Below are positions 1 to 666 of a stretch of 64,000 nucleotides of DNA, one piece after another. Source of the DNA: Sporocytophaga myxococcoides DSM 11118 (GTDB lineage: Bacteria > Bacteroidota > Bacteroidia > Cytophagales > Cytophagaceae); the NCBI RefSeq assembly GCF_000426725.1, contig NZ_AUFX01000003.1, forward strand, positions 620,001-684,000, written 5' to 3'. Position 1 is the stretch's first letter, and the number at the start of each line of letters is the position of its first letter. Both the position numbers and the translations under genes were made by a program. The notes beneath the pieces are model-generated. The model was not told the origin of the DNA. It was given only the letters and a program-made list of their open reading frames with translations, and made no database searches.

Positions 1-443
1 TTTCTATGCATCATCTGAGCAACCGTAACCTGAGATAACAATTGAATAGCATTGGATAGATTCATTCCTTCAAGCCACTCTGAATTGTATCTGATAGAAC
101 ATTTACTTATATCAAGAATCTTTGAAAGCTGAGCGACATAGGTTTTCGCATTCTCTTTAACCTGGTCTTCATTTAAAGGAGGACGGGATTTATTTTTCCC
201 GGTAGGGTCACCAATACGTGCTGTGAAATCTCCAATGATAATGACTATCAAATGACCAAGCTCCTGAAACTGCCTGAGTTTTTTTAATACTACTGCATGG
301 CCCAGATGAAGGTCGGGAGCTGTTGGGTCAAACCCTAATTTTACAACAAGCTTTCTGTTTTGTAATTCAGCTTGCTTTAATTTTTCATCAAGTCCGTTTT
401 CTAGAAAAATGATCTCGACATTTTCTTTTAATATATGATTCAT
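1..443 (-). CDS. tyrS: Tyrosyl-tRNA synthetase, N-terminal part (runs off the window)
   Basis: Charges tRNA-Tyr with tyrosine in the cytoplasm. Only the first 147 codons are in the window; the gene continues past position 1. The class I signature is clear: [13 protein letters not shown] with the HIGH-type motif HLGH at residues 46-49, then [15 protein letters not shown]-like sequence (here [16 protein letters not shown]), typical of the TyrZ-like bacterial TyrRS group. The ATG at 443-441 follows a Tyr-rich small ORF and an intrinsic terminator, which points to attenuation control. Identity rests on motif recall, but the Tyr content of the leader supports tyrosine specificity independently. 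Confidence 0.9.
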
Positions 444-482
444 ACTATATAAAATATTCTTGAACAGGATATAAAACAAAAA

Positions 483-504
483 AGCCCCCGACACGTCGGG
501 GGCT
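483..504 (-). terminator. Intrinsic terminator, probable attenuator of tyrS
   Basis: A perfect GC-rich stem (agcccccgac pairing with gtcgggggct) with a two-base gap. On the minus strand it is followed by TTTTTTGTTTTAT. It lies between the Tyr-rich leader ORF (stop at 532) and the tyrS start (443), so it can end transcription before tyrS is read. The leader segment CGGGG (complement of 552-556) could pair with the CCCCG of the stem as a competing antiterminator; that pairing is inferred. Confidence 0.85.
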
Positions 505-531
505 TTTGATTATAATAATGATTATTTATTA

Positions 532-615
532 TCAGCTAAAGTTATAGCAATCCCCGGCTCTGACTATCAGATAATAGTAAGCGTAGGTATAATAGGATTG
601 CATTAAATTCTTCAT
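532..615 (-). CDS. Tyr-rich leader peptide of the tyrS attenuator (27 aa)
   Basis: Translating the minus strand from the ATG at 615-613 gives 27 residues beginning MKNLMQSYYTYAYYYLIV and ending in TGA at 534-532. Seven of the 27 residues are Tyr, six of them inside the eight-residue run YYTYAYYY. It sits just downstream of a promoter-like sequence, ends shortly before an intrinsic terminator, and precedes tyrosyl-tRNA synthetase on the same strand. This is the classic layout of ribosome-mediated attenuation: scarce Tyr-tRNA would stall the ribosome on the Tyr codons and let the downstream gene be transcribed. The distance from the last clustered Tyr codon to the CGGGG segment is 14 bases, suitable for leaving that segment free. 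Function is inferred from layout. Confidence 0.8.
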   Translation of the reverse strand: MKNLMQSYYTYAYYYLIVRAGDCYNFS

Positions 616-634
616 ATTATGTTTTAAGGATAAT

Positions 635-666
635 CTAAATTAATTCATTTTTTTCTGTTAACCAAA
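635..666 (-). promoter_or_regulatory. Putative Bacteroidetes-type promoter for the tyrS leader
   Basis: On the minus strand a TTTG (complement of 663-666) is followed after 20 bases by TAATTTAG (complement of 635-642), seven of eight matches to the TAnnTTTG -7 box. The -33/-7 spacing fits the known Bacteroidetes promoter arrangement. Transcription would begin a few bases to tens of bases before the leader ATG at 615. Confidence 0.6.

Follow-up and report, generated by a model that had tools for sequence, protein, structure and literature searches.

An auxiliary tyrosyl-tRNA synthetase gene of Sporocytophaga and Weeksellaceae with a candidate leader-peptide transcription attenuator

A second tyrosyl-tRNA synthetase gene and its leader

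The window, a stretch of 64,000 nucleotides from Sporocytophaga myxococcoides DSM 11118, carries at its beginning, on the minus strand, the 5' part of a tyrosyl-tRNA synthetase (TyrRS) gene preceded by a short tyrosine-rich open reading frame (ORF), a terminator and promoter-like boxes (Table 1). The leader ORF contains seven Tyr codons, six of them inside YYTYAYYY. The intrinsic terminator has the form AAAAGCCCCCGA-CGTG-TCGGGGGCTTTT (507-480, minus strand), a 12-bp stem followed by TTGTTTT. The TTTG and TAATTTAG boxes stand 20 nt apart in the window and 19-20 nt apart in the four Sporocytophaga genomes; TAnnTTTG is the -7 promoter consensus used for comparison. A preliminary description of this DNA had already pointed to the Tyr-rich ORF of 27 codons, to a GC-rich terminator with a T-run, to a tyrS start at 443, to a promoter-like TTTG-N20-TAATTTAG and to a CGGGG in the leader, and all of these are present at the locus, the last at 556-552, with the promoter-like boxes unchanged in the four Sporocytophaga genomes.

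Table 1. Features of the tyrS2 locus in the window
Feature	Position	Strand	Remark
-33-like promoter element TTTG	666-663	-	Invariant in 4/4 Sporocytophaga genomes
-7-like promoter element TAATTTAG	642-635	-	One base off TAnnTTTG; invariant in 4/4 Sporocytophaga genomes
Leader ORF, 27 codons, MKNLMQSYYTYAYYYLIVRAGDCYNFS and stop	615-532	-	72/84 columns identical across 4 genomes
Region 1, GCAATCC; partner of region 2 when no ribosome covers it	601-595	-	Folds; invariant in 4 genomes
Control codons YYTYAYYY, six Tyr in eight	594-571	-	0/2000 shuffles
Region 2, CCGGGGATTGC; GGATTGC pairs with region 1, CGGGG (556-552) with region 3	557-547	-	
Region 3, terminator 5' arm AAAAGCCCCCGA; CCCCG (501-497) is the antiterminator partner	507-496	-	
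Region 4, terminator 3' arm, then TTGTTTT (479-473)	491-480	-	
tyrS2 5' part, auxiliary KMSKS-type tyrosyl-tRNA synthetase	443-1, continues past window base 1	-	ATG 443-441

When the 225-nt region was dinucleotide-shuffled 2000 times, no shuffle reached six Tyr in eight residues and one reached five. Within the window, 2 of 2512 short-ORF readings reach six, both of which we read as the leader ORF taken from two starts. Folding of the leader RNA also beats that of its shuffles (z -3.5, 0/200 as good).

The gene had been taken for tyrS. It is a tyrosyl-tRNA synthetase gene, but a second, auxiliary one (tyrS2) and not the housekeeping copy. The Sporocytophaga genome of the window has two TyrRS genes, and the housekeeping enzyme (426 aa, with KFGKSEG) is encoded on another contig, with no tyrS2-type leader upstream of its gene. 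The intact copy of tyrS2 in a congener (G001) scores 341.8 bits against TIGR00234, whose curated cut-off is 113.8, and has the HLGH and KMSKS motifs, and three TyrRS sequences of solved structure match tyrS2 at E up to 1e-40. In a midpoint-rooted tree of 44 rows the TyrRS2 of Sporocytophaga and of Weeksellaceae group together with full support; the KMSKS-type enzymes from other phyla, and those from other classes within the phylum, stand apart from them. Furthermore, in genus g66, which we infer to be Chryseobacterium, the housekeeping TyrRS is found in 173/173 genomes and tyrS2 additionally in 117. Judged from these sequences, tyrS2 is an auxiliary TyrRS gene.

Distribution of tyrS2 and conservation of the leader

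Among 98 relatives, this genome counted, tyrS2 was found in four, all Sporocytophaga, the other three being 76-92% identical by piece. None was found in the remaining 94, where matches are only 28-38% identical and appear to be ordinary TyrRS with a few weak paralogues. In a class-wide sample tyrS2 was present in one of 395 genomes, namely the window's own. KMSKS-type TyrRS of about 43-49% identity are common outside this class in a phylum-wide sample, and the nearest named relative outside the genus, at 62%, is Profundicola chukchiensis (Weeksellaceae). In the Weeksellaceae sample, 114 of the 296 genomes held tyrS2, as did 5 of the 33 genera; the family was assigned to Weeksellaceae because one member, L274, shares the leader of Profundicola. 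Such a patchy spread would follow from transfer between the families or from numerous losses. A tblastn search of plasmids with Weeksellaceae TyrRS2 gave 13 records, all below 60% identity and with no Bacteroidota genus among them, and no neighbours of tyrS2 are conserved across the window, L038 and L118. In one g66 genome without tyrS2 we observed a decayed tyrS2 leader, cut inside its terminator (L315, G492:C1:540320-540495), which we read as a relic of gene loss.

Clade loci were fetched in two sets, 121 first (four Sporocytophaga, Profundicola and 116 g66) and 18 later, giving 139 in total. L260, cut by a contig end, and L274, whose leader is identical to that of L038, were left out, which leaves 137 readable loci; G631, with a partial gene, is not among the 139. 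A leader ORF with Tyr codons precedes tyrS2 at all 137 loci, having been detected by script at 119/121 and at 17/17 of the later ones, with one more (L205) that uses a GTG start. For L273, L277 and L280 the script used an inner in-frame ATG, so that longer readings exist than the printed peptides. YY occurs in 135/137 clade leaders and, after the motif described below, in 131/133 Weeksellaceae leaders; in 26 of the 137 there are just two Tyr codons, a small number for a classic attenuator. The terminator was found by script at 132 of 137 loci and by an earlier script at two more, and at L036, L157 and L159 it was recognized by eye with one stem mismatch.

The preliminary description had proposed to look for the Tyr run, the stop and the terminator in related Cytophagales. 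Leader, stop and terminator are conserved in 4/4 Sporocytophaga, with a single Tyr codon changed in G003 (to Cys) and in G002 (to Asn) and a terminator mismatch in G002. Ordinary Cytophagales tyrS genes are without this leader, since tyrS2 is absent from the other 94 relatives; as a Cytophagales trait the leader is ruled out, tyrS2 being confined to one genus among the 98. The same architecture, with matching changes, recurs in Weeksellaceae. In Sporocytophaga, leader codons 4-7 and 16-24, which take in the greater part of regions 1 and 2, do not vary (39/39 columns in four genomes), and third positions are identical in 22/28 leader codons versus 27/53 of the first tyrS2 codons; in these four sequences, a small number, the constraint on the leader looks like that on an RNA.

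With a leader ORF plus a terminator upstream of TyrRS as criterion, none of 107 control loci gave a hit (73 KMSKS-type from other phyla, 26 from other classes of the phylum and 8 housekeeping-type), and the clade gave 132/137 at a threshold of at least two Tyr in eight and 102/137 at at least three. A general property of tyrS genes is ruled out by the 0/107 controls, only 8 of them housekeeping-type, and by this genome's own housekeeping tyrS, which is without the leader.

Pairing and predicted folding of the leader RNA

Because its sequence is like that of the terminator's 3' arm, region 2 can pair with the 5' arm. In the four Sporocytophaga the 2:3 pairing is CGGGG/CCCCG; in most g66, GTTCGGG pairs with CCCGGAC or CCCGAAC, and others have GCTCGG/CCGAGC. 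At four of the 137 loci the best-helix script took a spurious other match. Pairs were counted in a MAFFT alignment of 37 leaders in which we picked the helix columns. In helix 2:3, 96.3% of 243 cells are paired, falling to 49-55% when the partner is slid by one column. One pair is U-A in 22 leaders and C-G in 11, with none broken, the change lying within Weeksellaceae and the Sporocytophaga rows being gapped there, and the outermost pair is broken in 9/37. Three of five covariation measures are higher than in any of 500 shuffles. There are 11 cells with a change on both sides, which reflect few independent events, versus 3.7 in shuffles (0/500 as high); two-sided pairs, one of seven, and pair types, three, are not above shuffles (499/500 and 500/500 as high, respectively). 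The terminator stem covaries at 6 of 10 pairs (11/500 shuffles as high).

Energies and folds were computed for 132 of the 137 loci, the five without a script-found terminator being left out. The 2:3 duplex has an energy of -14.2 versus -9.3 kcal/mol in shuffles (mean z -2.2, n=132), and helix 1:2 energies are also better than those of shuffles (mean z -1.6). Folding of the leader RNA, the second check proposed at the outset, yielded mutually exclusive structures that depend on the state of the ribosome: the predicted fold has the 2:3 antiterminator in 131/132 loci with a stalled ribosome, the terminator in 132/132 with the ribosome at the stop, and region 2 sequestered upstream (1:2) in 116/132 without a ribosome. 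The 2:3 helix starts 14 nt past the Tyr run in 4/4 Sporocytophaga; at 82 g66 loci it starts 13 nt past the Tyr pair. Both starts lie just outside where the edge of a stalled ribosome is expected from the size of its footprint; in 15 g66 loci the best helix begins only 2-3 nt after the Tyr pair, inside the expected footprint.

In Rfam at a permissive threshold (E up to 1) the window leader gave 13 matches, every one of them short of the gathering score and located around the terminator. The lowest E was that of MicX, 0.00033 (30 of 75 bits); Phe_leader reached 35 bits over the terminator, versus a gathering score of 55. At the gathering score there was no relevant match in four relatives. A T-box leader, an RNA that binds tRNA directly, is ruled out, since no T-box was among the matches at E up to 1 or, in the four relatives, at gathering.

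Proposed mechanism and alternatives

Sequence and evolutionary comparison establish the parts of the locus and their conservation, the pairing of the antiterminator across clades, the fact that the leader evolves as a coding sequence in relatives, and the place of tyrS2 as an auxiliary gene. It is, in our judgement, highly probable that these parts work as a ribosome-mediated transcription attenuator, of the leader-peptide kind, that controls an auxiliary TyrRS: a short ORF with cognate codons, an intrinsic terminator before the gene, and an antiterminator that excludes the terminator and that the predicted stall would expose are all found. The idea that a Tyr-stalled ribosome frees CGGGG for the terminator arm, put forward in the preliminary description, is thus supported by the comparative tests and by the matching changes in Weeksellaceae.

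In the mechanism that we infer, including its transcription start, its stalling step, its induction by uncharged tRNA-Tyr and a physiological role for the spare enzyme, RNA polymerase would start from the promoter at 666-635 and a ribosome would begin the leader ORF. When Tyr-tRNA is plentiful, the ribosome would reach the stop and cover region 2, the 3:4 terminator would form, and tyrS2 would stay untranscribed. When charged tRNA-Tyr is scarce, because Tyr runs out or because the housekeeping TyrRS fails or is inhibited, the ribosome would stall in the Tyr run, covering region 1 and freeing region 2, 14 nt past the last Tyr codon of the run, for the 5' arm of the terminator; 2:3 pairing would then let the polymerase read into tyrS2. 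If the leader is not translated, regions 1 and 2 would pair and the terminator would form.

The peptide itself is under selection in part of the clade. In g66 and Profundicola (116 leaders, 77 distinct), whose conserved first half is MKxLxxILRLPFFSxYY, codons 2-17 have a pS of 0.61 and a pN/pS of 0.12, with 1.25 and 2.7 in the shifted frames, and Leu codon 4 uses six codons with zero replacements in 116 leaders. The nine codons after the Tyr pair have a pS of 0.18 and a pN/pS of 1.40 in the 109/116 leaders that are in register; seven out-of-register leaders were dropped and the register filter fixes one of the nine codons, without which the values are 0.20 and 1.37. In L156, L184 and L227 the frame shifts after the Tyr pair and the region 2 RNA is retained. 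The low pN/pS of codons 2-17, the value of about 1.4 in the later codons and the frame-shifted leaders that keep region 2 together imply that selection maintains the peptide in the first half and the RNA in the second. Indirectly, the leader ORF of g66 and Profundicola thus appears to be translated. Furthermore, the motif [IVL]L[RQ][LV]P[FY]F..Y occurs in 133/133 Weeksellaceae leaders from five genera; because P[FY]F or QSY served to select the leaders, this part of the motif is not independent, though no readable locus was lost for want of it.

In the classic form of attenuation the peptide is immaterial outside the control codons, and this does not hold in g66 and Profundicola, a departure that touches the classic form and not the mechanism. 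A peptide conserved up to the stall site, as in arrest leaders, was found in g66 and Profundicola only. Since a classic attenuator needs no conserved peptide, a nascent-chain or a trans role is suggested, and we favour a nascent-chain contribution. The Weeksellaceae first half may contact the exit tunnel and set, prolong or condition the stall, making the leader a hybrid of codon-run attenuator and arrest peptide. This reading refines our best explanation and is not its opposite; we hold it tentatively, as a serious possibility somewhat short of probable. It draws on the protein-like evolution of codons 2-17, on the unreplaced Leu codon 4 and on the motif common to all Weeksellaceae leaders, but the motif is partly bound up with the way leaders were chosen, the window's own genus is without it, and FF may simply be extra control codons, although that would leave LRLP unexplained. 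TnaC and the Erm type are nascent-chain arrest leaders, and they are alike in having a peptide sequence under selection within a regulatory leader; they differ in that the Tyr codons and antiterminator of the tyrS2 leaders fit codon-run attenuation. A more elaborate version is possible but rather doubtful: a hybrid switch in which ILRLPFF-SxYY would act in the tunnel and the second half would antiterminate, with induction depending jointly on how far tRNA-Tyr is charged and on a nascent-chain signal, which might be a ligand or a drug, Sporocytophaga then having a simplified version with a longer Tyr run. Such a hybrid switch is undescribed in the literature searched.

In the genome of the window tyrS2 has no full-length open frame: a frameshift outside the window leaves a 288-aa ORF from the ATG and a 111-aa ORF. 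One-base shifts at different sites interrupt tyrS2 in three of the four Sporocytophaga genomes (G000, G002 and G003), and they are independent, lying at about 1435 in L002, 1628 in L036 and 1462 in L035. They may reflect sequencing error, slippage or recent decay. The switch may thus be a relic in this genome and tyrS2 a recent pseudogene, a reading that the scattered frameshifts and the decayed leader persisting without tyrS2 in L315 invite and that we consider doubtful, though not far-fetched: tyrS2 dN/dS is 0.10-0.16 in all six Sporocytophaga species pairs, leader, antiterminator and terminator are intact in this genome, and two of the three shifts sit at A7 runs, sites open to sequencing error or slippage.

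Selection at the peptide level in g66 and Profundicola would also suit a released leader peptide that acts in trans besides ordinary attenuation, for which peTrpL of Sinorhizobium, a leader peptide reported to act in trans (PMC7298713), offers a precedent. We think this improbable, because the peptide constraint ends at the Tyr codons, where the RNA constraint starts, which fits a role during synthesis better.

The distance from terminator to tyrS2 ATG is 14-37 nt (median 22, 132 loci). A strict TAnnTTTG box lies between the leader ATG and the tyrS2 ATG in 2/119 loci and within 45 nt upstream of the leader in 55/119; in Sporocytophaga none of the four loci has a strict box, the one present deviating by one base. 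Given the short gap and boxes that are mostly upstream of the leader, a promoter downstream of the terminator is unlikely. It is accordingly very hard to credit that the small ORF and its terminator form a separate small gene, with tyrS2 served by its own downstream promoter: terminators normally end transcripts, but a -33/-7 promoter would not fit into the gap without overlapping the hairpin, the promoter-like boxes lie upstream of the leader, the leader can form pairs with the terminator arm at almost all loci, and leader and tyrS2 occur together in all 137 readable clade loci. In 52 of the 55 loci the strict box ends 5-8 nt before the leader ATG (g66, for example L118 1290-1325), so that the leader may be read from an almost leaderless mRNA. 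The phylum concerned, the Bacteroidota, largely lacks Shine-Dalgarno sequences.

A leader-peptide attenuator of tyrS2 would have well-known counterparts. The pheST, his, trp and phe operons of proteobacteria have leader-peptide attenuators, which share with the tyrS2 leader a control-codon run, mutually exclusive antiterminator and terminator, and sensing of aminoacyl-tRNA; the tyrS2 leader differs in serving a spare TyrRS in Bacteroidota. For the his leader, the structure of the peptide is said not to matter to the assay (PMC4046918). Duplicated aminoacyl-tRNA synthetases are common (PMC4787780), and the second TyrRS of Bacillus subtilis, tyrZ, is controlled by a T-box and a MarR regulator (PMC9437257). 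tyrZ is alike in being a second TyrRS whose expression is linked to tRNA-Tyr charging, and differs in its T-box, tyrS2 having no T-box match and no leader family at gathering score. Within the phylum, leader-peptide attenuation has been inferred for amino-acid operons of Flavobacterium psychrophilum, together with structured 5' UTRs of aminoacyl-tRNA synthetase mRNAs (PMC9723704); phylum and mechanism class are the same, and the part of that paper covered names no tyrS leader peptide. Short ORFs reminiscent of leader peptides are mentioned for Bacteroides thetaiotaomicron (PMC7366714). No tyrS leader of this kind in Bacteroidota was among the matches listed in our search of titles and abstract starts of open-licence PMC papers, without supplements.

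A covariance model also matched other leaders of this type; weak matches over about positions 70-174 only resemble ordinary terminators and were not counted. At L351 (G000:C19:790300-792200, minus strand), L355 and L356, two short ORFs in tandem, MILIQNIFFFCCSPDFIRPEEDLY and MTFTYSHTFCCFIIHSSV, contain Cys pairs, are each followed by a terminator-like hairpin and lie directly before tRNA-Cys(GCA); both recur in G002, with no match in G001 or G003. It is possible that this tRNA-Cys gene is attenuated through its own codons; the ORF after it has no NCBIfam or Pfam family match. At L354 (G000:C19:784600-786200, about 654-800) a leader-like ORF, MKQQSIFNIFKSLKRSGNPLCFFRDCCY, and a terminator precede a gene for Hen1, a component of the RNA repair system (TIGR04074, 372.1 bits, cut-off 340), where stalled translation could possibly induce RNA repair. 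At L352 (G000:C11:28600-30700, about 725-911) a leader-like region, a terminator and a matching antiterminator sequence lie before an EamA-type exporter gene. In other genomes, L322, L323, L341 and L353 show YYYY before phenylalanine 4-monooxygenase, HHHH before hisG and Phe/Tyr-rich leaders before two prephenate dehydratase genes.

The closest parallel comes from Streptomyces coelicolor, in which Vecchione and Sello reportedly described, in 2010, a leader-peptide attenuator of the indolmycin-resistant auxiliary TrpRS gene trpRS1. Both cases would involve ribosome-mediated attenuation of a second aminoacyl-tRNA synthetase through cognate leader codons; trpRS1 differs in concerning Trp and TrpRS, in belonging to Actinobacteria and in its known drug resistance. 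If our reading is true, Sporocytophaga and Weeksellaceae tie a spare synthetase to the charging of its own tRNA, a logic known from the drug-resistant Streptomyces TrpRS. The tyrS2 leaders provide a 137-sequence test case of leader-peptide attenuation in this phylum, and the split between peptide and RNA selection inside one 30-codon leader offers a testable prediction on nascent-chain effects in attenuators.
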